Below are positions 29,224 to 42,765 of a DNA stretch of 64,000 nucleotides, piece by piece (positions within the stretch are counted from its first letter, which is position 1; each line of letters starts with the position of its first letter). The DNA comes from Salipiger pallidus (GTDB lineage: Bacteria > Pseudomonadota > Alphaproteobacteria > Rhodobacterales > Rhodobacteraceae). Where the stretch lies: NCBI RefSeq assembly GCF_014643635.1, contig NZ_BMJV01000008.1, forward strand, positions 62,001 to 126,000. Direction: 5' to 3'. Made by a program: the position numbers and the translations under genes. The notes under the pieces were generated by a model. It searched no databases. It was not told where the DNA came from and saw nothing but the letters and a program-made list of their open reading frames with translations.

Positions 29224-30438
29224 TCAGGCGCTGACAGGCAGCTCCAGCGCGCTCAGCGCGGTGACCATGCGGTCCATCGCCTCGGCAAGGCGGTCTTCGC
29301 TCAGGGCGTAGGCCAGCCGCAGGTGGCCCGGCATATCGAAGGCGCTGCCCGGCACCACGGCGACCCGTGCGGCGGCAAGGATGTAGTTGCTGAGATCCAT
29401 GTCGTTTTCGATCACGCCGCCTTCGGGCGTCCGCGCGCCCATGAGGCCCTCGACCGAGGGGAAGACATAGAAGCTGGCGGGGGGCGTTGCCGCCTCGACG
29501 CCGGGCATCTTCGCGATCGCCTCCATGACCATGTCACGGCGCGCGGTCAGGCGCGTCAGGCGCGGCTGCAGCTCGGCCGGGTCGGTGTCGAGCGCGGCGG
29601 CGGCGGCGGCCTGCGAGATGGTCGAGGGGTTGGAGGTGCTTTGCGATTGCAGGATGTCCATCGCGCGCACCAGCCACGCGGGGCCGGCCGCGTAGCCAAG
29701 GCGCCAGCCGGTCATGGCAAAGCCCTTGGACACGCCGTTCACCGTCAGGATGCGGTCCACCATGTCGGGGGCCACGGCGGCGGGGGTGGCAAAGCTGCCC
29801 TCGTGCACGATCAGCTCGTAGATGTCGTCGGCCATGATCAGCGCGTGGTGATCGCGCAGCACGTCGCACAGCGCCGCCAGTTCCTCGGCGGTGTAGAGCG
29901 CGCCGGTGGGGTTGCCGGGGGAGTTCAGCATCACCCACTTGGTCGCCGGGGTGAGGGCGGCGGCCAGCGCATCCGGCGTCAGCTTCCAGCCATCGGCGGC
30001 AGTCATCGGCACGAGGATCGGGTTGCCGCCCGCAAGGCGCACGATGTCGGGGTAGGACACCCACGCGGGCACCGGGATCACCACGTCGTCGCCGGCGTCC
30101 ACGGTCGCCATCATGGCGTTGAACACCAGCTGCTTGGCGCCGGTGCCCGCGATGATCTGCGCGGGCTCGTAATCCAGCCCGTTGTCGCGCTTGAGCTTGC
30201 GCGCGATGGCGGCCTTGAGCTCGGGCGTGCCGGCAACGGCGGTGTACTTGGTCTGGCCGTCGCGGATGGCCTTGATGCCGGCCTCGGCCACGTGCTCGGG
30301 GGTGGCAAAGTCCAGCTCGCCCTGGCCGAGCGAGATGATGTCATGCCCCTCGGCCTTCATCTGCTGGACCTTGAGGGCCAGGGCGATGGTCTGGGGCGGG
30401 CGCACGGCGGACAGCCGCTTGGAGAGATATTCGGTCAT
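29224..30438 (-). CDS. Class I PLP aminotransferase (aspartate aminotransferase type)
   Basis: This 404-residue fold-type I enzyme moves amino groups from aspartate or related amino acids to 2-oxoglutarate. The N-terminal ISLGQGELDFATPEHV, the MLNSPGNPTGALYTAEEL segment, MADDIYELIVHE, the PLP lysine in VNGVSKGFAMTGWRLGYAAGP (about residue 237) and the PGSAFDMPGHLRLAYA arginine loop are present. It lies 16 bp after the D-amino-acid aminotransferase gene, so it is the last gene of the pxpA operon and probably acts on the glutamate or other amino acid released there. Housekeeping AspC is an alternative reading. Confidence 0.9.
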   Translation of the reverse strand: MTEYLSKRLSAVRPPQTIALALKVQQMKAEGHDIISLGQGELDFATPEHVAEAGIKAIRDGQTKYTAVAGTPELKAAIARKLKRDNGLDYEPAQIIAGTGAKQLVFNAMMATVDAGDDVVIPVPAWVSYPDIVRLAGGNPILVPMTAADGWKLTPDALAAALTPATKWVMLNSPGNPTGALYTAEELAALCDVLRDHHALIMADDIYELIVHEGSFATPAAVAPDMVDRILTVNGVSKGFAMTGWRLGYAAGPAWLVRAMDILQSQSTSNPSTISQAAAAAALDTDPAELQPRLTRLTARRDMVMEAIAKMPGVEAATPPASFYVFPSVEGLMGARTPEGGVIENDMDLSNYILAAARVAVVPGSAFDMPGHLRLAYALSEDRLAEAMDRMVTALSALELPVSA

Positions 30439-30454: not shown

Positions 30455-31339
30455 TCAGGCGGTGGCCACGGGCTTGGTGGGGGCCAGCGCGGTAGTGCGG
30501 CGGGTTTCGATATAGGCGGCGCGCATGGCGCGGGTCAGATCGCCGGGGATGCCGTTGCCGATGGTTTCGCCGTCGATCTTCACCACGGGCACCACGAAGT
30601 TGGTGGCCGAGGTGATGAAGGCCTCGCGCGCCGCCCGGGCCTCGTCGGGGGTGAAGGCGCGTTCCTCGATGGTCACGCCATGTTCGGCGGCCAGCTCGAG
30701 GATCGCGGCGCGGGTCACGCCGGGGAGCAGCGCGGCGGATAGATCGCGGGTCACCAGCACGCCGTCGGCATTGACGATATGCGCGGTGGCAGCGCTGCCT
30801 TCGGTGACAAAGCCGTCCTCGACCAGCCACGCGTCATCGGCGCCGCGGGATTTCGCCTCCATCTTCGCCATGGACGGGTAGAGCAGCTGCACCGTCTTGA
30901 TGTCGCGGCGGCCCCAGCGCAGGTCCGGCACCAGCGCGACCGAGATGCCTTTGTCCGCGGCGGGATTCACCAGCACGTCCTTTTCCTGCGTGAACAGGAA
31001 CAGCGTCGGCGGCGTGCCTTCGGGCGGGAAGGCAAAGTCCCGCTCGGCGGCACCGCGCGACAGCTGCAGGTAGATCATGCCCGAGGACATGTTGTTGCGC
31101 GCCACGATCTCGTGGTGCAGTGCCAGCAACTCGTCATCGTCCAGCGGCAGGGTCAGCTGCAGTTCGGCGGCGGAACGGCGCAGGCGGGCGGCGTGGCCGG
31201 GGTAATCCAGCAGCGCTCCATCCAGAACGCAGGTCACTTCGTAGATGGCATCACCCATGAGAAAGCCGCGGTCGAAGGCGGACACCTTCGCTTCGGCTTC
31301 GGGCAACCACTGGCCGTCGAGATAGATGGTGCGGCTCAT
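30455..31339 (-). CDS. Class IV D-amino-acid aminotransferase
   Basis: A 294-residue fold-type IV PLP enzyme. RRDIKTVQLLYPSMAKMEAK carries the catalytic lysine in the D-alanine aminotransferase form (IKxxxLL), and LVEDGFVTEGSAATAHIV carries the PLP-binding Glu. The N-terminal YLDGQWLPEAEAKVSAFDRGFLMGDAIYE is also D-AAT-like rather than IlvE-like. It probably interconverts a D-amino acid and its 2-oxo acid. It overlaps pxpA by 4 bp, placing a D-amino acid in the pathway of this operon; the exact substrate is unknown. Confidence 0.85.
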   Translation of the reverse strand: MSRTIYLDGQWLPEAEAKVSAFDRGFLMGDAIYEVTCVLDGALLDYPGHAARLRRSAAELQLTLPLDDDELLALHHEIVARNNMSSGMIYLQLSRGAAERDFAFPPEGTPPTLFLFTQEKDVLVNPAADKGISVALVPDLRWGRRDIKTVQLLYPSMAKMEAKSRGADDAWLVEDGFVTEGSAATAHIVNADGVLVTRDLSAALLPGVTRAAILELAAEHGVTIEERAFTPDEARAAREAFITSATNFVVPVVKIDGETIGNGIPGDLTRAMRAAYIETRRTTALAPTKPVATA

Positions 31340-32121
31340 GCCGGGTCCTTTCCGGGGGTATTGAAGGGGGCGATTGTCACGTCGTTTGCCTCGAGGTTGG
31401 TGCGCAGGTTGCGCGCGATCTCGACAGCGCCGGCGGTGTCGCCATGGATGCACAGGGTTGCGGGCTCCACCGGAAGGCGCTTACCGCCGGTGGTGGGGAT
31501 GTGGCCGTTCAGCACCATCTCAAGCACCTGATCGGTGCTTTGCGCGATGTCGTGGATGACCGCGCCGGGCTGGGTGCGCGGGGTCAGCTCGCCCGCGTCG
31601 GTATAGCTGCGGTCAGCGTAGATTTCGCAGGCGACCGGCAAGCCGGCCTTTTCGGCGGCGGCATAGGTTTCCGAGTAGGGCAGGGACACGTAGGTCAGCT
31701 TCGGGTCCACCGACTTCACCGCCCGCACACAGAGTGCGGCGAGGTCGGCATCGACGGCGGCCATGTTCCCCAGCGCGCCGTGGGTCTTGACGTGGGTCAT
31801 GCGGTGGCCGGCGATCTCGGCCATGCCGCGCATCGCGGCGATCTGGTAGACCAGCTGCGCCTCGAGATCCTCGGGGCGCTCGCCACTGATGCGGCGGCGG
31901 CCAAACCCGTAGAGGTCCATGAAGGAGGGATGCGCGCCGATGGCCACACCGGCGTCGCGGGCCAGCCCGATGGTGCGTGCCATGACCGCGGGATCGCCGG
32001 CGTGGAAGCCGCAGGCGATGTTCGCGGTGGTCACGATCTTCAGCATTTCGGCGTCGTCACCCATGGTCCAGGCGCCGAAGCTCTCACCCATATCGCAATT
32101 GAGATCCAATGTGCGTGTCAT
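31336..32121 (-). CDS. pxpA: 5-oxoprolinase subunit A (LamB/YcsF family)
   Basis: A 261-residue subunit of the ATP-dependent PxpABC 5-oxoprolinase, which opens 5-oxo-L-proline to glutamate. The signature LDLNCDMGESFGAW is at the N terminus, followed by NIACGFHAGDPAVM, IGAHPSFMDLYGFGRR, VKTHGALGNMAAVD and LCIHGDTAGAVEIARNLR, all diagnostic of the family. The start at 32121 follows AAAGGATAGG; an upstream open extension runs into the operator. Unusually, pxpA is divergent from pxpB-pxpC rather than in one operon with them. Confidence 0.92.
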   Translation of the reverse strand: MTRTLDLNCDMGESFGAWTMGDDAEMLKIVTTANIACGFHAGDPAVMARTIGLARDAGVAIGAHPSFMDLYGFGRRRISGERPEDLEAQLVYQIAAMRGMAEIAGHRMTHVKTHGALGNMAAVDADLAALCVRAVKSVDPKLTYVSLPYSETYAAAEKAGLPVACEIYADRSYTDAGELTPRTQPGAVIHDIAQSTDQVLEMVLNGHIPTTGGKRLPVEPATLCIHGDTAGAVEIARNLRTNLEANDVTIAPFNTPGKDPA

Positions 32122-32194: not shown

Positions 32195-32216
32195 GGATAC
32201 AGCTGGTATACTGAAA
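32195..32216 (+). promoter_or_regulatory. Operator-like element in the divergent pxpA / pxpB promoter region
   Basis: It reads GGATAC, four bases (AGCT), then GGTATACTGAAA. The same 22-bp element, identical at 20 positions, is upstream of the TRAP transporter operon at 42744-42765 (minus strand). TATACT inside it could itself be a -10 hexamer for pxpB, 28 bp before the ATG. The 10-bp spacing of GGATAC and GGTATAC suggests one helical turn. The gene context makes the encoded GntR regulators the likely binders. Confidence 0.7.
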
Positions 32217-32243
32217 AAGCAAGCAAGGCAGCGAAGGTTGGCA

Positions 32244-32993
32244 ATGAACAGCGGCACAACGCCCGAAAATGGGGCGACAGACGATCACTCGGGGGCGGTA
32301 CGGATTCTGCCCGTCGGCGACACGGCGATGACGGTCCAGTTTGGAGAGGTGGTGGACGAGGAAGTCAACCGCCGCGTGATCGCTCTTGCCGAAGCGCTGC
32401 GCTCGGCGGCCCCCGACGGACTGCTGGAAACCGTGCCTACCTATCGATCCCTTTTGGTGAGCTACGATCCGGAGATCCTGCGCGGCGCGGCGCTTGAGCG
32501 CCACCTGCACGGGCTGCTGGACGGGCTAGATACCGGCGCGGCGCCGGGGCGGCTGTGGCGGGTGCCGGTGGTTTATGGCGGTGCTGCGGGGCTTGACCTC
32601 GAGGAATTGGCCGAGGCCAAGGGCATGTCCCCCGAGGCGCTCATCAAGATGCATTCGGATGCGGAATACCGAGTCTACATGATCGGCTTTGCGCCGGGCT
32701 TTACCTATCTTGGTGGTCTGCCGGAGGCGCTGCACACACCGCGCCTGTCGACTCCGCGCCTCGACATTCCCGCAGGTGCCATCGGCATCGGTGGCCAGCA
32801 GGCCAGCATCAACTCGGTCGCAGGGCCTTCAGGCTGGCGCTTCATCGGGCAGACCCCGTGGCGCGCCTTCGATCCGGACCGGGCGGAGCCGTTCCTGTTC
32901 GCCGCCGGTGACCGCGTGCGCTTCGTCCCTGTCACCGAGGACGAGGCGAGGGCCTTTGCCAGCCCCCGTCCCGAACAGGAGAACCTGTCATGA
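32244..32993 (+). CDS. pxpB: 5-oxoprolinase subunit B (KipI-like)
   Basis: A 249-residue subunit of PxpABC with the allophanate-hydrolase subunit 1 domain: VRILPVGDTAMTVQFGEVV at the N terminus, and MIGFAPGFTYLGGLPEALHTPR, PAGAIGIGGQQASINSVAGPSGWRFIG at the C terminus. The ATG at 32244 gives about 22 residues before the domain. It overlaps pxpC by 4 bp and heads an eight-gene rightward operon. Confidence 0.93.
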   Translation: MNSGTTPENGATDDHSGAVRILPVGDTAMTVQFGEVVDEEVNRRVIALAEALRSAAPDGLLETVPTYRSLLVSYDPEILRGAALERHLHGLLDGLDTGAAPGRLWRVPVVYGGAAGLDLEELAEAKGMSPEALIKMHSDAEYRVYMIGFAPGFTYLGGLPEALHTPRLSTPRLDIPAGAIGIGGQQASINSVAGPSGWRFIGQTPWRAFDPDRAEPFLFAAGDRVRFVPVTEDEARAFASPRPEQENLS

Positions 32994-34018
32994 GTCTGGA
33001 CGTGCTTCAGGCGGGACCGATGACCTCGATCCAGGATCATGGCCGCCATGCGCACAAGCGCTTTGGCGTGCCGGCGGCGGGGGCCATGGACCGGCCTGCG
33101 CTGGACCTTGCAAACGCTCTGTGCGGCAACGCTCCCGAGGCGGCAGCGCTGGAATTCACCGGACTTGGCGGCACGTTCCGGGCCGGGGCGGACATGCTGT
33201 GCGCCGTCACCGGCGGTGAGTGCCAGATCACCGTAGAGGGCAAGACCGTCCCGTCATATGAATCGTTCCGGGTCAGCGCCGGTGATACCCTGCGCATCGG
33301 CGCCCTGCGCGGCGCGGTCTGGGGATACATGGCCGTGGCGGGCGGCATTGACGTGCCGCAGGTGCTTGGCGCGCGGGCAACCCATCTGCGCTTCGCCCTT
33401 GGCGGCATCGACGGCCGCCCCCTTGCGGCGGGCGACACCCTGCCCGTGGGCGAGGCTGAGCCAGGCATCGGCCTGCGCCCCCGCGAGGTGCCTGCGCCGG
33501 CCTCGGCCGAGCTGCCGATCCGCATCGTGGCGGGCCCTCAGGATGACTATTTCGACGCCGACACGCTGGCGCTGCTGACCTCGGCGGTCTTCACCGTGTC
33601 ACCGCAGCGCGACCGCATGGCCATGGCGCTCGACGGGCAGGAGTTGCGCGCCGCGCAGGGCCACGACATCGTGTCCGACGGCATCGTGCCCGGCGCCATA
33701 CAGGTGCCCGCCTCGGGGCGGCCGATGGTGCTGATGGCCGACGCCCAGACCACTGGCGGTTACCCCAAGATCGCCACCGTCGCCTCGGTGGACCTGCCGC
33801 GCCTCGCGCAACTGCCCACCGGAGCCACCTTCCGCTTCGAGCTGGTCAGTCGCGACCGGGCCGAGGATCTGGCCATCGCCGAACGCGCTCGCTTGCGTGA
33901 GGTGCTGGCCGGGCTGATCCCTGCGGGCCGCGCGGCGCTAAGCTCGGAATTCCTGCTGTCGTGCAACCTTGCCGGCGGTGTCGCCGACCCGGCGGCGGTC
34001 ATGGGGGACCTCGAATGA
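32990..34018 (+). CDS. pxpC: 5-oxoprolinase subunit C (KipA-like, biotin-dependent carboxylase-like fold)
   Basis: A 342-residue subunit of PxpABC with the allophanate-hydrolase subunit 2 domain. It has LDVLQAGPMTSIQDHGRHAHKRFGVPAAGAMDRPAL at the N terminus (quoted in parts: QDHGRHAHKRFGVP, GAMDRPALDLAN), then VSDGIVPGAIQVPASGRPMV and DAQTTGGYPKIATV. It ends with an ATGA overlap into the GntR gene. With PxpA and PxpB it should form a complete enzyme. Confidence 0.93.
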   Translation: MSLDVLQAGPMTSIQDHGRHAHKRFGVPAAGAMDRPALDLANALCGNAPEAAALEFTGLGGTFRAGADMLCAVTGGECQITVEGKTVPSYESFRVSAGDTLRIGALRGAVWGYMAVAGGIDVPQVLGARATHLRFALGGIDGRPLAAGDTLPVGEAEPGIGLRPREVPAPASAELPIRIVAGPQDDYFDADTLALLTSAVFTVSPQRDRMAMALDGQELRAAQGHDIVSDGIVPGAIQVPASGRPMVLMADAQTTGGYPKIATVASVDLPRLAQLPTGATFRFELVSRDRAEDLAIAERARLREVLAGLIPAGRAALSSEFLLSCNLAGGVADPAAVMGDLE

Positions 34019-34689
34019 GTCGCACCAGCCTTGCGGAGACCGCTTACCGCGAGCTGATCCGCATGATCCTTGAAGGGCAGCTGAAGCCCGGGGACACCCT
34101 GCAGGAGGTCAAGCTCTGCGAGGTGCTCGGCATGTCGCGCACCCCGGTGCGCGAGGCCATCGGGCGCATCGACAGCGATGGGCTGGCCGAACAGAAGGGG
34201 CGCTTTTTCCGGGTCCGCCGCATCACCGCCGAGGAGATTGATGAGATCTTCTTCCTGCGGCTCGCGCTGGAGCCGGCCTGCGCCCGTAACGCTGCTGGAC
34301 GAATGGACGTGGCGCGGCTGCATGCGCTGGAGGTGGCCGTGCGCGCGCTGCTCGAGTCGGGGCCGGGGCAGGACGATCTGCAATGGCACGTGGACCAGGA
34401 CCTGCACCTGGCCTTTGCCGGGGCGTCGGGCAACGCGCCCATGGTGCGGGTCATCGCCGAGCTGCACCGCCGCACCTGCATCTATGATCACCGTGTCGTG
34501 CCCGAACGCTTTGCCGAAGGCTGCGCCGAACACCTCGCCCTGATCGAGGCGGTCCGCTCCGGTGACGGGGCAGGAGCCGAAGCGCTCATGACGGCCCACC
34601 TGACACAGGCGCGCGACGCCATCGTCACGCATCTTGCCGGCGCCGACAGCGCCGCGACCGACATCACAGAAAGGACCGCAGGCACATGA
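34015..34689 (+). CDS. GntR family regulator (FCD type), first of two in the operon
   Basis: A 224-residue transcription factor. The N-terminal winged helix contains YRELIRMILEGQLKPGDTLQE and LGMSRTPVREAIGRIDSDGL. The C-terminal FCD effector domain has EEIDEIFFLRLALEPACAR, HVDQDLHLAFAGASGNAPM and the metal-ligand histidine region EHLALIEAVRSGDG. Embedded between pxpC and a dehydrogenase gene with 4-bp overlaps on both sides, it probably senses a pathway metabolite and acts at the shared 22-bp element (inference). Confidence 0.9.
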   Translation: MSRTSLAETAYRELIRMILEGQLKPGDTLQEVKLCEVLGMSRTPVREAIGRIDSDGLAEQKGRFFRVRRITAEEIDEIFFLRLALEPACARNAAGRMDVARLHALEVAVRALLESGPGQDDLQWHVDQDLHLAFAGASGNAPMVRVIAELHRRTCIYDHRVVPERFAEGCAEHLALIEAVRSGDGAGAEALMTAHLTQARDAIVTHLAGADSAATDITERTAGT

Positions 34690-35639
34690 AATGTCTGATC
34701 GTTCAGCCCGTGCATGACGCCGGGCTAGACCTGCTGCGCCAGAACGGCATCACTCCCGTCATCTGCCCTGCCACCGACACCAAGACCCTTGCGCGCGAGG
34801 TCATGGGCTGTGACGCGGTGATCACCCGCGACGCCGGCTTCCCGGCCGAAGCTTTCGACGCCGCTGACCGCCTGCGCGCCGTGGTGGTGCATGGCACCGG
34901 CCACAACGCCGTCGACAAGGACGCCGCCATCCGCAACGGCGCGCTGGTCGCCAACACGCCGGGGGCCAACGCCCAGTCGGTGGCCGAGCTGACCGTGGGC
35001 CTTGCGCTGGACGCGCTGCGCGGCATGTCCGCGGCGGACCGGGCCGAACGCTCCGGCCGTGCCGGTTTCCGCGAGTCGATGCCGTTCATCGAGCTTGCGG
35101 GCAAGACCGTGCTGGTGGTCGGCTGGGGCGCCATCGGCGCCCGCGTCGGTGCCATCATGCGGGCTGCTTTCGGCTGCGAGGTGCTGGCCTATTCCCCCCG
35201 CGCCACCTCCATCGAGGGTGCGACCCGTGTCGAGACGCTGGACGAGGGGCTGGCCCGTGCCGACGTGGTGACGCTGCACACCCCGGCGCGGCCCGACACC
35301 TACCACCTCATCAACCGCGCGCGGTTGCAGGTGATGAAGCCCGGCGCCGTGCTGGTCAACGTCGCCCGTGCCGAGTTGGTGGACGAAGAGGCGCTGGCCG
35401 AGGTGCTGGCCGCGGGCGGCATCGCCGGTGCCGCTCTGGACGTCTACAGCAAGGCCGCGCCGCAGGGGCCGTTGGCGGAGTGCGCTAACGTGATCTTCAC
35501 GCCCCACCTCGGTGCCACCACGGAAGAGGCGCTGCGCCGCGTCGCCATGGGCGCCGCCGGCCACGTGGTCACCGCGCTGCAGGGCGGCATCCCCGCCACC
35601 ACGCTGACTCCGGTTCAGGCCGCGGAGCAAAGCGCATGA
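34686..35639 (+). CDS. D-2-hydroxyacid dehydrogenase (SerA-like)
   Basis: A 317-residue NAD-dependent oxidoreductase with the formate/glycerate dehydrogenase fold. The Rossmann motif is VLVVGWGAIGARVGAIMRAAFG (GxGxxG, about residues 141-158), the catalytic Arg is in VNVARAELVDEEAL, and the catalytic His is in FTPHLGATTEEAL. The usual catalytic Glu (DVFxxEP) is absent: this protein reads LDVYSKAAPQGPL, so activity may be altered. The overlap with both neighbours ties it to the pathway, plausibly reducing the 2-oxo acid made by the aminotransferases or oxidising a D-hydroxy acid. Confidence 0.86.
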   Translation: MKCLIVQPVHDAGLDLLRQNGITPVICPATDTKTLAREVMGCDAVITRDAGFPAEAFDAADRLRAVVVHGTGHNAVDKDAAIRNGALVANTPGANAQSVAELTVGLALDALRGMSAADRAERSGRAGFRESMPFIELAGKTVLVVGWGAIGARVGAIMRAAFGCEVLAYSPRATSIEGATRVETLDEGLARADVVTLHTPARPDTYHLINRARLQVMKPGAVLVNVARAELVDEEALAEVLAAGGIAGAALDVYSKAAPQGPLAECANVIFTPHLGATTEEALRRVAMGAAGHVVTALQGGIPATTLTPVQAAEQSA

Positions 35640-36910
35640 CCGAAACCACGATCCGCATTCCCGAAGCTCTCATTGCCAAGACGATCTCGCGCGGGCTGTC
35701 GCGCGTGAACGCCATCTCCGAAGGTGGCCCCGGCTGGACCCGCCCGTCCTACAGCGCGCTTGAATCGCAAGCCCACGCGGTGATCGAGGAGGAAGCTGTC
35801 GCCCTTGGTCTCGAGATCCGGCGCGATGCGGCGGGCAACCTCTTTGCCACGCTGCCGGGCCGCGACCGCGCGCCGGAACGGGCGCTGCACATTGGCTCGC
35901 ATCTCGACACCGTGAGCCAGGGCGGGGCCTATGACGGGCAGGCCGGTGTGATGGGCGGCCTCGCGGTGATCACCGCACTGCGCGACATGGGGCTGACCCC
36001 GGCCACCGACATCGTTCTGACGGTCACCCGCGCGGAAGAAAGCGTGTGGTTCCCCGTGTCCTACGCCGGCTCGCGCGCGGGGATGGGGCGGCTGGCGCCG
36101 GAGGATTTCGACGCCCCGCGCGCCGACACCGGGCGCAGCCTTGCCGACCACATGGCCGAAGCCGGTTTTGACCCGGACGCGGTGCGGAACATCACACCGC
36201 CGACCCCGGCGCGGTTCCTCGAGTTCCACATCGAACAGGGCCCGATCCTCGACGAGGCCGGTGAAGCTTACGCCATCGTCGAGGCGGTGCGCGGCGGTCT
36301 GCGCTACCGCGCCGCCGAGGTGCACGGCACATGGGCCCATTCGGGTGGCGTGCCGCAGAACCACCGCGCCGACGCGATGCTGGCCATGGCCGAACTGATC
36401 TGCGCCATGGACAGCGCCTGGACCCGGCTCACCGCCGAAGGCCACGACCTTACCGTCACCTTCGGCAAGGTCGATGCCGCCACACCCCAGCACGCCATGG
36501 CCAAGGTCGCCGGGCATGTGGGCTTCGTGCTCGACATGCGCTCGGCGGACGTGGCCTCGCTCGAGGCCGCGGACGAGGTGCTGCGGGCCGAGATCGCCCG
36601 GATCGAGGCCGCGCGCCCCGGCATCCGCTTCGATCTTGGCACCCAGAGCCGGTCTGCCCCGGCGCGCCTTTCGTCCAGCATGGCGGCGATGGTCGCGGGC
36701 GGCGCGACGGCGCAGGGCGATGCGCCCCGCCGGATGCTGTCGGGCGGCGGGCACGATGCCGCGGCTTTTTCGGCAGCGGGCTGGGACGCGGTGATGGTCT
36801 TCATCCGCAACTGGAACGGCAGCCACTGTCCCGAAGAGGCCATGGATGAGGCAGACCTTTGCCGCGCCGTCGCTGCCGTGGTGCATGCCATCGCGGCGGA
36901 GGTCGCATGA
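35636..36910 (+). CDS. M20 family hydantoinase/carbamoylase-type amidohydrolase
   Basis: A 424-residue Zn-dependent amidohydrolase of the N-carbamoyl-L-amino-acid hydrolase / allantoate amidohydrolase group. Metal and substrate motifs are HIGSHLDTVSQGGAYDGQAGV, TRAEESVWFP (EE pair), LEFHIEQGPILDEAGE, AEVHGTWAHSGGVPQNHRADAM and MLSGGGHDAAAF. It should hydrolyse a linear ureide or N-acyl amino acid. It sits between the dehydrogenase gene and a GntR gene, with 4-bp overlaps. The EESVWFP form differs from the common EEGSRF, so the substrate may be atypical. Confidence 0.9.
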   Translation: MTETTIRIPEALIAKTISRGLSRVNAISEGGPGWTRPSYSALESQAHAVIEEEAVALGLEIRRDAAGNLFATLPGRDRAPERALHIGSHLDTVSQGGAYDGQAGVMGGLAVITALRDMGLTPATDIVLTVTRAEESVWFPVSYAGSRAGMGRLAPEDFDAPRADTGRSLADHMAEAGFDPDAVRNITPPTPARFLEFHIEQGPILDEAGEAYAIVEAVRGGLRYRAAEVHGTWAHSGGVPQNHRADAMLAMAELICAMDSAWTRLTAEGHDLTVTFGKVDAATPQHAMAKVAGHVGFVLDMRSADVASLEAADEVLRAEIARIEAARPGIRFDLGTQSRSAPARLSSSMAAMVAGGATAQGDAPRRMLSGGGHDAAAFSAAGWDAVMVFIRNWNGSHCPEEAMDEADLCRAVAAVVHAIAAEVA

Positions 36911-37536
36911 GCACGTTGGCGGACAATGCCTACCTGCGCCTGCGCGAGGACATCGTCACCGGGCGCATCGCCGCCGAGACGGTGCTGTCCGAGCGTGGCC
37001 TGACGGAGGTGCTGGGGGTGTCGCGCACCCCACTGCGCACCGCGCTCGGGCGGCTCGAGCGGGATGGCATGGTCGACCGGCTGGCCAACGGGGTAATCCT
37101 CGTGCGGTCGGTGACGGTCGAGCAGCTGCTGCAGATCGTGCAGCTGCGCCAGCGCCTCGAGGGCGCCGCTGCCGGGCGCGCAGCGCAGCGCGGCACCACC
37201 GCGCGGCTGACCGAACTGCGCGATGCCATGGCGCGCCTCGCGGACGGCGCCGAGGTCACCTTTGACGCGTTCTGGGTGGCCGACGGGACGTTCCACAAGG
37301 CGGTAGCCGAAGCTGCCGGGCTGCGCCTGCTGCCAAACATCCTTGACGATCACCGCGCCATCGCACGGCGCTGCACCCTGACGCGCACCTACGACACCTT
37401 CACCGAGCAGGCGCGCGAACACGTGGAGATCGCCGACGCCATCGCCGCCGGTGACGCAGACGCTGCAACCGCCCTCATGCAGGGCCATTTCGAACACGTC
37501 CAGGACCGTTTCCTGGGCACCTTCAAGGGACGCTGA
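36907..37536 (+). CDS. GntR family regulator (FCD type), second of two in the operon
   Basis: A 209-residue regulator. The winged-helix region has AYLRLREDIVTGRIAAETVLSE and LGVSRTPLRTALGRLERDGMVDR, followed by an FCD-type helical domain (QLLQIVQLRQRLEGAAAGRAA, WVADGTFHKAVAEAAGL, EHVEIADAIAAGDADAA). It differs clearly from the regulator at 34015, so it is not a recent duplicate. A regulator placed within a catabolic operon usually controls it; having two suggests two signals. Confidence 0.9.
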   Translation: MSTLADNAYLRLREDIVTGRIAAETVLSERGLTEVLGVSRTPLRTALGRLERDGMVDRLANGVILVRSVTVEQLLQIVQLRQRLEGAAAGRAAQRGTTARLTELRDAMARLADGAEVTFDAFWVADGTFHKAVAEAAGLRLLPNILDDHRAIARRCTLTRTYDTFTEQAREHVEIADAIAAGDADAATALMQGHFEHVQDRFLGTFKGR

Positions 37537-37539
37537 GGC

Positions 37540-38709
37540 ATGAAGGACACCACCGCAACGCTTACCGGGTCGGAAGCGACCTTTCCGGCGGCGGAATACG
37601 ACCGGCGGCTGGACCGGCTGCGCGCACGCATCCGCGAGGGCGGTGCCGAGGCGCTGCTGCTGACCGGCCCCGAGAACATCTACTGGGCCACCGGCCGCCA
37701 GACCGCCGGATACTTCGCCTTCCAGGCCCTCGTGGTGCCCGCCACCGGCGCACCGGTGCTGCTGGTACGCCAGCTCGAGGAAACCTCGGCCCGCGCAGGC
37801 ACCTGGCTCGACGATATCCGCACCTGGCAGGACGGGCAGGACCCGGCTGCCGTGCTGGGCAAGCTCATCGCGTCGCTGAAGCTGGGCCGGATTGCCATGG
37901 AGCGCACCGGCTGGTTTGTCAGTCCGGCGCTGTCGGACGCCATGATTGCCGCGCTTGGCGACGTGACGCTGATGGACGGATCTGGCTGGGCCGAAGCGGC
38001 ACGCATGGTCAAATCCCCCGCCGAACTGGCGGCGATGCGCCTTGCGGGCAGTTACGCCGATGCCGGCATGGCCGCCGCGCTCGAGGCCTGCCGCGCCGGG
38101 GCGTCCGAGAACGACATCGCCGCAGCGATGACCTCGGCTGCCATCGCAGCCGGGTCCGAGGCCATGGCGATGGAGCCGCTGGTCTCGTCCGGTCCGCGCT
38201 CGGGCATTCCGCACGCCACCTGGCGGCGGCGGACGCTCGAGGACGGGGACGGCGTGTTCCTTGAACTGGCCGCCAGTCATGATCGCTACCACGCCGCGCT
38301 GATGCGGGCCGCCTGGATCGGCCAGCCGCCAGAGGCGGCGCGGCACATGATGGATACCGCGCTGCGGGGCCTTGATGCCGCGCTCGGGGCAATCCGTCCC
38401 GGCGCGCCCTGCGCCGCCCCGCACGAGGCGGCGCAGGCAGTCATCGACGACGCAGGCCACACCGCCGCCTTCCGCAAGCGGGCGGGCTATTCCATGGGCG
38501 TCGCCTTTGCCCCCGACTGGGGCGAGGGCGGGATCCTGTCGCTTTTCACAGGCGTCGAGACGCCCTTGCAGCCCGGCATGGTGTTCCACCTGCCGATCAC
38601 GCTGCGCGATTACGGCCGCTACACCGTCGGTGTGTCGGAAACCGTGATCGTCACCGAAACCGGGGCCGAGCCGCTGTCGCGGCTGCCGCGCGCCCTGTCC
38701 ATCTGCTGA
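37540..38709 (+). CDS. M24 family creatinase-like hydrolase
   Basis: This 389-residue protein has an N-terminal creatinase domain (ALLLTGPENIYWATGRQTAGYFAFQALVVP in parts, about residues 34-65) and a C-terminal pita-bread domain (about 150-389). Of the five metal ligands of M24 aminopeptidases, most are missing: FLELAASHDRYHAALMR lacks the Asp pair, GYSMGVAFAPDWG replaces the His, and GMVFHLPITL replaces a Glu; SETVIVTE keeps the last. Creatinase and some ectoine-hydrolase-like proteins also work without metals, so it more likely opens a C-N bond in a small molecule than cleaves peptides. It starts 3 bp after the GntR stop. Confidence 0.87.
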   Translation: MKDTTATLTGSEATFPAAEYDRRLDRLRARIREGGAEALLLTGPENIYWATGRQTAGYFAFQALVVPATGAPVLLVRQLEETSARAGTWLDDIRTWQDGQDPAAVLGKLIASLKLGRIAMERTGWFVSPALSDAMIAALGDVTLMDGSGWAEAARMVKSPAELAAMRLAGSYADAGMAAALEACRAGASENDIAAAMTSAAIAAGSEAMAMEPLVSSGPRSGIPHATWRRRTLEDGDGVFLELAASHDRYHAALMRAAWIGQPPEAARHMMDTALRGLDAALGAIRPGAPCAAPHEAAQAVIDDAGHTAAFRKRAGYSMGVAFAPDWGEGGILSLFTGVETPLQPGMVFHLPITLRDYGRYTVGVSETVIVTETGAEPLSRLPRALSIC

Positions 38710-38729
38710 CTTTCGAAAGGACCTGAAAG

Positions 38730-39143
38730 ATGCAATCTCTCTTCCACCTCGCCTATCACGTCACCGATCTCGAGGCCGCCCGTGATTTCTACGGCCGCGT
38801 GCTTGGCTGCGCCGAGGGCCGCTCGACCGAGACCTGGGTTGATTTCGACTTCTTCGGCCACCAGCTGTCGCTGCACCTCGGAGAGCCCTTCCCGGTGACC
38901 CGCACCGGCAAGGTCGGCGATCACATGGTGATGATGCCCCACCTCGGTGCCGTGCTGCGTCTTGACGACTGGAAGGCGCTGGCCACGCGCCTTGAAGACG
39001 CGGGCGTCACCTTCGACATCCCGCCGGTCATCCGCTTTGAGGGCGAGCCGGGCGAGCAGCGGACCATGTTCTTCTTCGACCCCGCGGGCAACCCGATCGA
39101 GATCAAGGGCTTTGCAGATTTCGAAGGCCTCTTCGCCGCCTGA
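38730..39143 (+). CDS. VOC (glyoxalase/dioxygenase) superfamily protein
   Basis: A 137-residue protein with two beta-alpha-beta-beta-beta modules: FHLAYHVTDLEAARDFYGRVLGC at the N terminus and TMFFFDPAGNPIEIKGF at the C terminus, with His, Glu and Asp residues placed as metal ligands in the VOC fold. It is last in the pxpB operon, 20 bp after the M24 gene and before a strong terminator. The reaction is unknown; it may be an isomerase, epimerase or dioxygenase step of the pathway. Confidence 0.82.
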   Translation: MQSLFHLAYHVTDLEAARDFYGRVLGCAEGRSTETWVDFDFFGHQLSLHLGEPFPVTRTGKVGDHMVMMPHLGAVLRLDDWKALATRLEDAGVTFDIPPVIRFEGEPGEQRTMFFFDPAGNPIEIKGFADFEGLFAA

Positions 39144-39181
39144 TCCGGCAGCACATGACGCGGGGCAGGCGCCTTGCACGC

Positions 39182-39212
39182 AAACCCCCGGTCCTCGTGG
39201 CCGGGGGTTTTT
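39182..39212 (+). terminator. Strong intrinsic terminator of the pxpB operon
   Basis: A perfect stem (AAACCCCCGG 39182-39191 / CCGGGGGTTT 39201-39210) with a 9-nt loop and TTTTT. A nearly identical terminator in inverse orientation is at 39548-39580. Confidence 0.92.
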
Positions 39213-39547
39213 CATGTATTCCATTTCGGGGTGGCGCTGTCCGTAGCCAAGTAAGTGGGAGTGCAGGGCTGCGGAACGGTACCGGGCGCGACTTGGGCAT
39301 GACTGCAGATGCGGCACGGTGCCAAATGTGCGTCCGGCAGCCTGAGAACTGCCGTCGCAGGGGCTCGGGTCGTGCGGCTGGAGGGAGGAGAGCGAGAGCT
39401 GGCACCTGCGAGCAGAGAGCATGGACATACCTTAGCCGGGCTGAGACCAAGAACTGGACTATGCGTCCGGTGGAAAGTGCCTCGAGTCCAGAGACCCGGT
39501 GCCTGCGCTATGCCGCGCCGGGAGCCGCGCTCTATTTCGGATGGCAT
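39213..39547. other. Noncoding spacer between two inverted terminators
   Basis: About 335 bp with no credible gene on either strand. Its ends carry related sequences (CCATTTCGGGGTGG and CTATTTCGGATGG) in direct orientation. Nothing else is recognised. Confidence 0.5.
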
Positions 39548-39580
39548 GAAAAACCCCCGACCACGAGGGCCGGGGGCGAC
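39548..39580 (-). terminator. Intrinsic terminator of the TRAP transporter operon
   Basis: On the minus strand the stem CCCCCGGCCC / GACCACGAGG-type hairpin (GGGGG/CCCCC base, one mismatch) ends in TTTTT. It lies 23 bp past the large-permease stop. Confidence 0.85.
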
Positions 39581-39602
39581 AAGGAGCAGCTTGAAAGAAG
39601 GC

Positions 39603-40898
39603 TCAGCGCAGCATGTCGGGGACGACGCTGACGGTGCCCGGGAAGACGGCGATCAGGAAGACGAAGGCGGCCATGATAAGGAAGAACGGCATGGTCGCCC
39701 GGGTCACCTTGGCGATGCTGTCGCCGGTAAGACGCTGGATCACCGTAAGGTTGAAGCCGACGGGCGGCGAGATTTGCGCCATCTCCACCACGATCACGAG
39801 GAAGATGCCGAACCACACTTTGTCGTAGCCCGCGGCCTCGACCAGCGGCAGGGTGATCGGCAGGGTCATGACGATGATCGCGAGGCCCTCCATCACCATC
39901 CCGAGCAGGATGTAGAACACCAGCAGCACGGCGATGAGCGCGATGGGCGACAGACCCCATGCATTGATCGTGCCGGCGATGTAGCGCGGTAGGCCGAGGT
40001 AGCCGATGGCGGTGGACAGGAACATCGCGCCGACCATGATGAGGCCGATCATCGCGCTGTTCTCGGCCGCCTGGCGGGCGGCGGCGATCAGACCGCGCAG
40101 GTCCAGCTTGCGCTGTGCCACGCCGATGACGATGGCGCCGAGGACCCCGGCGGCGGCCGCTTCGGTCGGGGAGGCGATGCCGCCGTACATGGAGCCGATG
40201 ACGAAGAGGATCAGCATCAGCAGTGGGCCAAGTTCCTTCAGAGCCGACAGCTTCTCGCGCAGGGTGGTCTTGGGCGGCACTTCTCCGATGGCGTCGGGCT
40301 TGAGAATGCCGCGCAGGCCGATGTAGCCCATGTAGGCCACGGCGAGCAGCGCGCCGGGCAGGATGCCGGCCATGAACAGGCGCAGGATCGATTCCTCGGC
40401 CATCACGCCGTAGATGATCATGATGGTCGACGGCGGGATCAGGAAACCCAGCGTGCCGGCCCCGGCCAGCGAGCCGATCACGAGCGAGCGGTCATAGCCG
40501 CGGTTCAGCAGTTCGGTCGCGGTGATGCGGCCGACGGTGACGGTGGTGGCGCCGGACGAGCCGCAGACCGACGCGAACATGGTGCAGCCCAGCACGTTGA
40601 CATGGGCCAGCCGCCCGGGCACCCGGCGCAGCCATGGCGTCAGGCCGGTGAACAGCGCGCGAGAGATGTCGGTGCGTACCAGCACTTCGGCCATCAGGAT
40701 GAACAGGGGCAGGGCCAGAAGTTCAGGCGAGGACAGAACGTTCCACGCCTGCTGCGCCAGAAGCTTGGAGACGGGCATCGCGGGGCGGAAAAGGCTGATC
40801 ATGACCACGCCGGTGGCAATCAGGCCGAGGCCGATCCACAGGCCGGAACCCAGCAGCAGGGCCATCACGCCGACAAGGGAGGTGGCGATATTGGTCAT
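39603..40898 (-). CDS. dctM: TRAP transporter large permease subunit (DctM family)
   Basis: This 431-residue protein with about 12 membrane helices forms the transport channel of a tripartite, sodium-driven importer. Family features are LFILMAEVLVRTDIS, CTMFASVCGSSGATTVTVGRI (the signature near TM4), GTLGFLIPPSTIMIIYGVM and WFGIFLVIVVEMAQISPPVGFNL near the C terminus. It is the last gene of the operon that begins with the solute-binding protein and small permease. Confidence 0.93.
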   Translation of the reverse strand: MTNIATSLVGVMALLLGSGLWIGLGLIATGVVMISLFRPAMPVSKLLAQQAWNVLSSPELLALPLFILMAEVLVRTDISRALFTGLTPWLRRVPGRLAHVNVLGCTMFASVCGSSGATTVTVGRITATELLNRGYDRSLVIGSLAGAGTLGFLIPPSTIMIIYGVMAEESILRLFMAGILPGALLAVAYMGYIGLRGILKPDAIGEVPPKTTLREKLSALKELGPLLMLILFVIGSMYGGIASPTEAAAAGVLGAIVIGVAQRKLDLRGLIAAARQAAENSAMIGLIMVGAMFLSTAIGYLGLPRYIAGTINAWGLSPIALIAVLLVFYILLGMVMEGLAIIVMTLPITLPLVEAAGYDKVWFGIFLVIVVEMAQISPPVGFNLTVIQRLTGDSIAKVTRATMPFFLIMAAFVFLIAVFPGTVSVVPDMLR

Positions 40899-41025
40899 TC
40901 GGGGGTCCTTTCAGGCAAGGGGGCCGGGGCGCTTGGGCACCCCTTGAGGGCGGAAGGCGCTGGCTGGCGCCGCGTGTGGGGCGAGGCGCCTGCGGCGTTC
41001 CTCGGGGGGGAAATCCAATGCGGTC

Positions 41026-41574
41026 TCAGTCGATCGCTTCGGCAACGGCCAGCGTCTCACCGCGGGCAAGACGCAGGGCCTGTCCGACGCATTGCAGCGT
41101 CAGCAGGGCAGCACCTGTGGCGGCGAGACCCTGTGGCATCCACAGCGGCGTGCGCACGACGGTCGACGAGGTGGAGCCTCGGTCGAAGGACAGCCATGCC
41201 ATATCGATCAGCGCCCAGGCGAGCACGCCGCAGGCGGCGATGCCCACGAGGCATGCGGCCCACTCAAGGGCACGGGCGGCCGGGCGCGGCACCGCTTCGA
41301 GCACTGCGGTCACGCGCACATGTGCCCCGCGGCGCAGCGCATCGCCGGCTCCCATCATGAAGGCGGTGCCCATGGCATAGGCCGAGAAGTCCCATGAGTA
41401 GGGAAGCGAATGGCCCAGCACGTTGCGGGCGAAGATTTCGGCACTGATGAGGACGAAGATCACCAGCAGCGCGAGTCCGGCCACGAGGTTGGCGGCACGG
41501 GTCAGCGCGTCGATCGGGCCGATCAGGCTATCGAAACGACGGCTGGTGCCTGGCTGCGCGTCTGCGTGTGTCAT
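41026..41574 (-). CDS. dctQ: TRAP transporter small permease subunit (DctQ family)
   Basis: A 182-residue membrane protein with four predicted helices (LVAGLALLVIFVLISAEIFARNVLG first; then SAYAMGTAFMMGAGDALRRGAHVRV, with the conserved G-HVR motif after TM2). It pairs with the large permease. The ATG at 41574 gives MTHADAQPGTSRR; the upstream open extension overlaps the region after the binding-protein gene. About 130 bp separate it from each neighbour. Confidence 0.9.
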   Translation of the reverse strand: MTHADAQPGTSRRFDSLIGPIDALTRAANLVAGLALLVIFVLISAEIFARNVLGHSLPYSWDFSAYAMGTAFMMGAGDALRRGAHVRVTAVLEAVPRPAARALEWAACLVGIAACGVLAWALIDMAWLSFDRGSTSSTVVRTPLWMPQGLAATGAALLTLQCVGQALRLARGETLAVAEAID

Positions 41575-41702
41575 GGTGTCCCTCTCTTGGGCCGCTGAGC
41601 GGTCTTGAAACAGGAATGGCGCGGCCGGACCGGGGGGGGAAGAGGATCTTCCGGCCGCGCCATCGGACGGTACCACGGGTACCGCCCGGTCGGGGGCGGC
41701 GA

Positions 41703-42686
41703 TTACTCGCCGCGCACCGCGAGGTAGCTGTCGATAACCGGGGCCGCTTCGGGCACGCGCTCCTTGAAGGCGTCCCACAGCGGCATCGCGGCGTCGAGCA
41801 GCGCGTCCTGCAGTTCCGGCGACGGCGAGGTGACGGTCATGCCATTCTCTTCCAGAGTCGCGATCTTGGCGGCGTCCTCGTCGGCGGAGTTCTCCCAGAA
41901 GGAGCCTTCCAGCTCGGCCGCGGCGGATTCGATGGCCGCCTGATCTTCGGCTTCCAGCGCGTTCCAGGCATCAAGGTTCACGGTCACGATGTTCGACGAT
42001 GCCTGCCAGTTGAAGCGGTTCATGTTGCCCATGAACTCCCAGAATGAGCCGTCGACGCCCGAGGAGGACGAGGTGGTCACACCGTCGATGGTGCCCGCCG
42101 CGAGCGAGGGAACGACTTCACCCCAAGGCATCTGAAGCGGTGCAGCACCCAGCGCGCCGAAGAAGGAGTCGCCGTTGGCGTCGACCACGCGGATGGTCAG
42201 GCCCTCGAGATCCTCGACGGTTTCGATGGGCTCGGGCGAGTACACGGCCTGGCCGGGCCACGGCACAATGTAGAGCAGCTTCTGGTTCATGTCCTCGGCG
42301 ATGTCTTCGATCATCGGGCGATAGAACTTGTGCAACAGCGCAAGGTCCGGGAGGGTCGGGGCGAGGAAGGGCAGGGTCTCGACACCCAGCGCCGGGTTTT
42401 CGCCAACCTGCTGGCTCATCAGAATGTCGGCGATTGGCACGAGGCCGTCACGCACGGCGGCCATGCCTTCCGGGCCACGGATGCCCAGAGCGCCGCCCGA
42501 GTGCACGGTGATCTGCACGTCGCCGTCGGTGACCTCGTTCACGGTCTCGGCGAAGGTCATGGCGTTCTGGGTGTGGAAGTTGCCTTCCGGCCAGACCACC
42601 GACATGTCCCACATGGTCTGCGCGGCAGCAGCACTGCCCAGCGTCAGGCCCAGTGCGGTGGTGGCAAGCATAATTCCCTGTTTCAT
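41703..42686 (-). CDS. dctP: TRAP transporter solute-binding protein (DctP family), periplasmic
   Basis: A 327-residue secreted receptor. It has a Sec signal peptide (MKQGIMLATTALGLTLGSAAAAQ, cleavage after the AAAA-Q region) and the DctP core: WPEGNFHTQNAMTFAETVNEVTDGDVQI, LYIVPWPGQAVYSPEPIETVEDLEGLTIRV and PWGEVVPSLAAGTIDGVTTS, including the ligand-binding Arg in TIRV. The start at 42686 is set by the signal peptide. The ligand is not known, but the operator shared with the pxp promoter points to the substrate of that pathway. Confidence 0.92.
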   Translation of the reverse strand: MKQGIMLATTALGLTLGSAAAAQTMWDMSVVWPEGNFHTQNAMTFAETVNEVTDGDVQITVHSGGALGIRGPEGMAAVRDGLVPIADILMSQQVGENPALGVETLPFLAPTLPDLALLHKFYRPMIEDIAEDMNQKLLYIVPWPGQAVYSPEPIETVEDLEGLTIRVVDANGDSFFGALGAAPLQMPWGEVVPSLAAGTIDGVTTSSSSGVDGSFWEFMGNMNRFNWQASSNIVTVNLDAWNALEAEDQAAIESAAAELEGSFWENSADEDAAKIATLEENGMTVTSPSPELQDALLDAAMPLWDAFKERVPEAAPVIDSYLAVRGE

Positions 42687-42743
42687 CTTATTGGTCCCTT
42701 GGATTGGTGGGCGCCCCCCGGCGTTTCGAGCGGCTTGGACGTA

Positions 42744-42765
42744 TTTCAGTATACCATCAGTATCC
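42744..42765 (-). promoter_or_regulatory. Operator-like element upstream of the TRAP transporter operon
   Basis: On the minus strand it reads GGATAC, four bases (TGAT), then GGTATACTGAAA. It matches the element at 32195-32216 at 20 of 22 positions and has the same orientation relative to the downstream operon. On the plus strand it appears as two CAGTAT-containing 11-bp units (42747-42757 and 42758-42768). It begins 58 bp before the dctP ATG. Confidence 0.72.

Follow-up and report, generated by a model that had tools for sequence, protein, structure and literature searches.

The window that we analyzed is a stretch of 64,000 nucleotides of the Salipiger pallidus genome (contig NZ_BMJV01000008.1, positions 62,001 to 126,000), and all positions refer to this stretch unless stated otherwise. 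It contains two divergent operons that start with pxpA and pxpB, respectively. The leftward operon consists of pxpA (LamB/YcsF; 31336..32121, minus strand), a class IV aminotransferase gene that overlaps the pxpA stop codon (AT4; 30455..31339, minus) and a class I/II aminotransferase gene (AT1; 29224..30438, minus). The rightward genes, all on the plus strand, overlap or almost abut: pxpB (32244..32993), pxpC (32990..34018), gntR1 (34015..34689), a D-2-hydroxyacid dehydrogenase gene (HADH; 34686..35639), a gene for an M20 hydrolase of the hydantoinase/carbamoylase family (35636..36910), gntR2 (36907..37536) and a gene for an M24 hydrolase whose nearest solved relative is the ectoine hydrolase DoeA (37540..38709). 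GntR1 and GntR2 are FCD-type GntR regulators, and both score above the GntR and FCD cut-offs of Pfam. The third operon, dctPQM, is located on the minus strand and encodes the binding protein DctP (41703..42686), the small permease DctQ (41026..41778 as an open frame; the true start is perhaps near 41574) and the large permease DctM (39603..40898) of a TRAP transporter. The starts of pxpA, AT4, pxpB, dctP and both gntR genes were inferred from the reading frames.

A 22-bp element, GGATAC-N4-GGTATACTGAAA, is present between pxpA and pxpB (copy 1; 32195..32216, plus strand) and upstream of dctP (copy 2; 42744..42765, minus strand), where we predict operators. The two copies, GGATACAGCTGGTATACTGAAA and GGATACTGATGGTATACTGAAA, have 20 of 22 bases in common and differ at two. 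A sequence-only reading of this DNA had reported the pair with these coordinates, strands and degree of identity, all of which were borne out by a scan of the window; at up to three mismatches, the window holds just these two copies (mean of 0.00 in 100 shuffles). The reading had also placed both copies in the same orientation relative to the downstream operon and, indeed, the GAAA end of each copy faces its operon. The spacing between element and start codon is 27 bp for pxpB (ATG at 32244) and 57 bp for DctP (ATG at 42686); the distances of 28 and 58 bp given earlier hold if counted to the start base. Copy 1 also precedes the ATG of the divergent pxpA (32121) by 73 bp. When the pxpA-pxpB gap was compared with the 300 bp upstream of dctP, the best 22-mer identity was 20, and the maximum in 300 Markov resamples was 17; the likeness of the pxpB-side and DctP promoter regions is beyond chance.

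A scan of the 4.44-Mb genome detected no third copy with up to three mismatches, and the backwards pattern gave no match. Occurrence at many unrelated genes, which the sequence-only reading had named as a possible refutation, was thus not observed, and two copies per 4.44 Mb rule out a common promoter box or chance. The pattern TGGTATACTGAA, searched with up to one mismatch, was found at one extra place in the genome (C5:151911, one mismatch), and its backwards control had three matches. An M24 match at E 1e-60 is present in 11 of 195 related genomes, six of which have it at 72-100% identity (G000, G011, G014, G015, G070 and G109). The exact element is present in all six genomes with an M24 homologue of at least 72% identity and in none of the other 189. 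Co-occurrence was counted on exact matches only because the background at three mismatches is high: 82 of the 195 relatives then have some match, and the backwards pattern also matches many genomes. Occurrences of GGTATCCCGTGGTATACTGAAA in G053, G065, G096 and G118, and weaker matches in G033, G056 and G063, were set aside, with none of the queried cluster genes nearby. The two-copy arrangement was found in 3 of 19 other genomes of the same genus.

A search of named genomes resulted in 90 loci, of which 80 were kept (81 with the window); since the loci are related and three are duplicated (L047, L055 and L061 are the same DNA as G015, G011 and G109), the locus counts are not independent. Alloyangia pacifica KcN7-14 and Cereibacter changlensis are among the carriers of the cluster. 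The TRAP genes form a separate operon in 8 of the 81 loci, run straight into pxpB as dctPQM in 19 and are located behind pxpA in 2; another 26 have an ABC module without TRAP genes in the examined DNA, 3 have neither, and 23 have no pxpB. In the 19 fused loci, a copy of the element is followed by dctPQM and then directly by pxpB, and the remaining genes are in a different order in two of them (L051 and L057). The site is present at both promoters in all eight separate-TRAP loci, with four mismatches at the TRAP site of L079. Loci from Enterobacterales and Acinetobacter (L103-L114, L116 and L120-L122) encode an M24 homologue (50-54%) together with an AT1 homologue, and no pxp match or site was found in their examined DNA; L108 also contains ABC transporter, M20 deacylase, enolase-family and DapA-family genes.

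Sites in these loci were identified with a 19-position consensus that frees one spacer base common to the two sites of the window, a choice made after viewing the relatives. At up to four mismatches, it detects 112 sites in the 81 loci (1.68 Mb), and the reversed consensus detects none in the same DNA. Sixty of these sites are located upstream of pxpB (33) or DctP (27), counted when they lie on the same strand no more than 260 bp before the matched part of the gene; the pxpB site of the window was assigned by hand. A further 49 are located at other genes (M24b 22, DUF1989 21, ABC 5 and a third GntR 1), and these are not an independent test because the M24b, DUF1989, ABC and arginase queries were picked after sites had led there. 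The other three lie elsewhere, one of them also upstream of that third GntR gene. Of the 80 loci, 22 have no pxp genes and were dropped; in 46 of the remaining 58, the pxpB or DctP promoter holds the best match of the entire locus, with 0.9% expected. The 12 misses comprise two truncated loci (L054 and L123), five with a better or tied site at the ABC/M24b/DUF1989 module (L064, L074, L075, L076 and L078) and five without a site at the pxpB promoter (L082, L085, L086, L100 and L102).

The sequence-only reading had pointed to conservation at orthologous loci as a check, and the element is kept there: in a gapless alignment of eight TRAP promoters (seven of the eight separate-TRAP loci plus L034, with L079 left out), 18 of 22 columns are invariant in the element versus 0 of 83 in the flanks. 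For 46 typed sites, the consensus is [GA][GCA]ATAC-N3-TGGT[AG]TAC[TC]GAAA; L054, L057, L075, L078, L092, L095 and L097 were excluded because they are near-identical, truncated or divergent. In the GTATAC core, the G, both T and the C columns are invariant, and the A columns are kept in 37 and 45 of the 46 sites. Beyond this core, the element lacks clean palindromic symmetry; it reads TTGGTATACCAA in L057 and is imperfect elsewhere.

The element could be mainly a core promoter, with TGGTATACT as an extended -10 box recognized by the same sigma factor at both promoters. The sequence TGnTATACT resembles the extended -10 consensus. In several contexts, including the first site of the window, no -10 scores higher than TATACT, and the orientation of the 112 sites toward the downstream gene is nearly always the same. 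However, a sigma-factor box would recur genome-wide, and the element occurs twice. Moreover, ATAC in the left half, outside the -10, is kept in 45-46 of the 46 typed sites, whereas the last T of TATACT is a C in 14 and TGTAC is found in 9. Finally, 9 of 54 scored contexts (L052, L053, L056, L059, L060, L061, L062, L064 and L068) have an exact TTGACA plus a -10-like box just upstream of the element on the forward strand. Forward promoter boxes are clear in some lineages only; they are not clear in the window's own lineage, in which the in-element TATACT is the top-scoring forward -10. We consider the core promoter reading improbable.

The GTATAC core conforms to the GT-N2 or N3-AC rule described for operators of FCD-type (FadR/VanR) GntR proteins (PMC4494728). 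Together with the strict co-occurrence of the site with two FCD-type GntR genes, this core makes GntR1 and GntR2 the candidate binders, and we hold it highly likely that the 22-bp element is the operator of a cluster-encoded FCD-type GntR regulator (GntR2, GntR1 or both). GntR2 of the window has the residues proposed as base contacts in NanR (the ER, SRT and LR arginines and the wing Asn), with exceptions among its homologues in L073 and L077, which do not have the first Arg, and L098, which does not have the Asn. GntR1 of the window has neither the first Arg (ER) nor the wing Asn, and the SRT arginine is kept in both proteins. We lean toward GntR2 as the binder, with binding by both GntR proteins as a real possibility.

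A regulator encoded outside the cluster would be in line with the co-variation between operator bases and GntR residues, which picks neither GntR1 nor GntR2: in this comparison of 46 sites, in which kinship was uncontrolled, several top scores fall outside the HTH and no single binder emerges. The distribution of the element makes such a regulator quite improbable. The site is present in 51 of the 53 loci with both gntR genes, and the contigs of the other two (L054 and L123) end before that promoter; the exact copy is absent from all 189 relatives without a close M24 homologue; and an operator with this GTATAC core has been described for the FCD GntR Atu1419. Two observations count against a cluster-encoded binder: L057 has the site and a GntR match of just 36%, and in the Methylobacterium loci a single divergent GntR match (32-36%) goes with sites that are variant or missing.

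Downstream of the element, a CAAG is found at a near-fixed place in 41 of 44 divergent sites versus 2 of 10 TRAP-only sites (L073, L075-L078, L092 and L095 were among those omitted from the former, and L079 was omitted from the latter; the L034 TRAP position is one base off, which does not affect its result). Because the sites are related, the corresponding Fisher p of 6.3e-6 should not be read as a true probability. A role of the element in RNA, as a shared leader sequence, would fit its conserved orientation and nearness to the downstream gene but is hardly credible, as CAAG tracks the divergent promoter and not the downstream gene. On the other strand, CAAG reads CTTG (32220..32223, minus). 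In 29 of 44 contexts, the two top-scoring pxpA promoters include one that pairs a TTG box with a TAT box inside the element at a distance of 17 bases; in the window, this promoter is not one of the top two. Based on this pairing, CAAG may supply the -35 box for divergent transcription of pxpA.

GntR1 and GntR2 are probably repressors that are released by substrate. In the absence of inducer, the regulator would occupy the element, which would overlap promoter boxes, and would block three operons: pxpA-AT4-AT1 and dctPQM, both leftward, and pxpB-pxpC-gntR1-HADH-M20-gntR2-M24, rightward. At loci of the TTGACA type, both promoters would be masked once the regulator is bound. Release would be triggered by the substrate or an intermediate, upon which import, ring opening and expression of the regulators' own genes would rise together. 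Kept at the same genes in many alphaproteobacteria, the element is very probably a shared switch for the importer and the ring-opening catabolic genes. The comparative data strongly support its behaviour as a conserved operator of the GntR type that is specific to the cluster and couples the TRAP transporter to the pxp genes. The sequence-only reading had called the pair direct evidence for co-regulation; co-regulation is strongly supported, and "direct" is too strong a word for what is deduced from sequence.

Most Rhizobiales loci contain, close to the cluster, a module consisting of a second M24 gene (M24b), a DUF1989 gene, an ABC transporter and an arginase-family gene, often about 2-3 kb past M24 and with two divergent sites. 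The same module, also with two sites, is located about 350 kb from the main cluster in G070, although the two are linked in other genomes; this favours a regulon over a mere effect of proximity. The divergent arrangement of M24b and DUF1989-ABC-arginase with two sites is found at 9832-10000 of L038 (G070) and in Rhizobiales loci such as L074 (12899-13080); the left half of the site toward DUF1989 differs in these modules (GAAnTCC or GAATGCC). A search of the window's own genome gave no M24b match, an empty result that alone shows little. In L055 (14720-15720), a third GntR gene, 49% identical to GntR1, has two variant sites upstream, and the SRT of its recognition helix is changed to SLT. The distribution of the element marks the gene set of an apparently uncharacterised catabolic regulon in many alphaproteobacteria.

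The element links uptake by a TRAP transporter with an ATP-dependent enzyme for ring opening, and the pattern of its occurrence suggests that transporters have been exchanged under a conserved switch. It had been predicted that the transporter carries the substrate of the pxp pathway. The fused dctPQM-pxpB operons lend good support to transport of a pathway substrate. Its identity with 5-oxoproline is no more than plausible, and another cyclic nitrogen compound is the alternative. The nearest solved relatives of DctP are 2pfz and 2pfy (E about 1e-37), which we take to be DctP6/DctP7, and the nearly equal 6wgm (3e-37). DctP6/DctP7 structures have been solved with 5-oxoproline (PMC13274462), and likewise those of BP1887 and BP1891 (PMC12344293).

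PxpB passes its NCBIfam equivalog cut-off (201 bits, cut-off 146). PxpA passes two subfamily models (354 and 243 bits, cut-offs 226 and 213) and is below all three equivalog cut-offs (261/392, 237/337 and 222/378), and PxpC fails its equivalog (239 bits versus 500). The M20 protein passes the hydantoinase/carbamoylase cut-off (232 bits, cut-off 204). A second TRAP-aminotransferase-pxpBCA cluster is present in the same genome (L134; C9:108001-126000), 38-56% identical to the first; its PxpA and PxpC are likewise below the equivalog cut-offs (298 bits for PxpC, which is closer to YbgK), it contains a GntR-like stretch with 30% identity to GntR1, and the genome scan at up to three mismatches detected no copy of the element in it. 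The extra hydrolases, the PxpA and PxpC scores and this second, element-free cluster disfavour plain 5-oxoproline. A second pxp-TRAP cluster is also located near the first one in L066 (13984-18726; pxpA 67%, pxpC 36% and pxpB 35%).

A more specific scenario, which we regard as tentative and rather unlikely, is that GntR1 and GntR2 jointly read the asymmetric operator, each favouring one half (GGATAC or variants, and TGGTATAC), and that the regulon degrades an undescribed cyclic ureido or guanidino compound instead of 5-oxoproline. In this scenario, ring opening by PxpABC would consume ATP, cleavage of the ring-opened product would fall to the M20 carbamoylase and the DoeA/creatinase-like M24, and the Rhizobiales arginase-DUF1989-ABC module would join under the same operator. 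For the reading that we prefer, an operator of GntR2, GntR1 or both, the two copies offer two short DNA fragments for finding the regulators and then the ligand.

The literature search found no paper linking TGGTATAC with GntR and, for combinations of pxpA, pxpB, TRAP transporter and GntR, returned the PxpR paper alone; among the matches listed, nothing dealt with this cluster. GntR2 matches PDB 6z74, presumably Atu1419, at E 2.7e-14. Atu1419 of Agrobacterium fabrum is described as an FCD GntR with operator ATGTATACAT, a palindrome that overlaps -10 boxes, and the arginine of its SRT motif, also present in GntR1 and GntR2 of the window, contacts a G (PMC7797058). The putative operator of the window has the same GTATAC core, and both systems have an FCD-type GntR. 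However, the Atu1419 operator is given in that report as a 10-bp palindrome, whereas the element of the window is asymmetric, 22 bp long and, with few exceptions, oriented the same way.

NanR of Escherichia coli, a FadR-type GntR, is reported to recognize an asymmetric GGTATA operator, to bind a single GGTATA poorly and to need at least two of them at a defined spacing (PMC8012715). GntR2 resembles NanR in keeping its proposed base contacts, including the NG wing. In contrast to NanR operators, the element of the window has a single GGTATA, spaced 10 bp from a GGATAC, and not two or more close GGTATA repeats, and no NanR-named chain is among the best 10 solved relatives of GntR1 or GntR2 (E 1e-5).

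A further close system is PxpR of Corynebacterium glutamicum, described as a 5-oxoproline-binding GntR repressor of pxpABC and a transporter gene; this 2026 report states that, to its authors' knowledge, the regulation of bacterial 5-oxoproline metabolism had previously been unstudied (PMC13274462). As in pxpTABC, pxpABC and a transporter are located here behind the same putative GntR operator. The PxpR system, as described there, consists of one regulator and four genes including that for PxpT, a transporter of the APC superfamily. The system of the window, in contrast, has two GntR paralogues, a TRAP transporter (ABC in other genomes), more enzymes and at least two putative operators.
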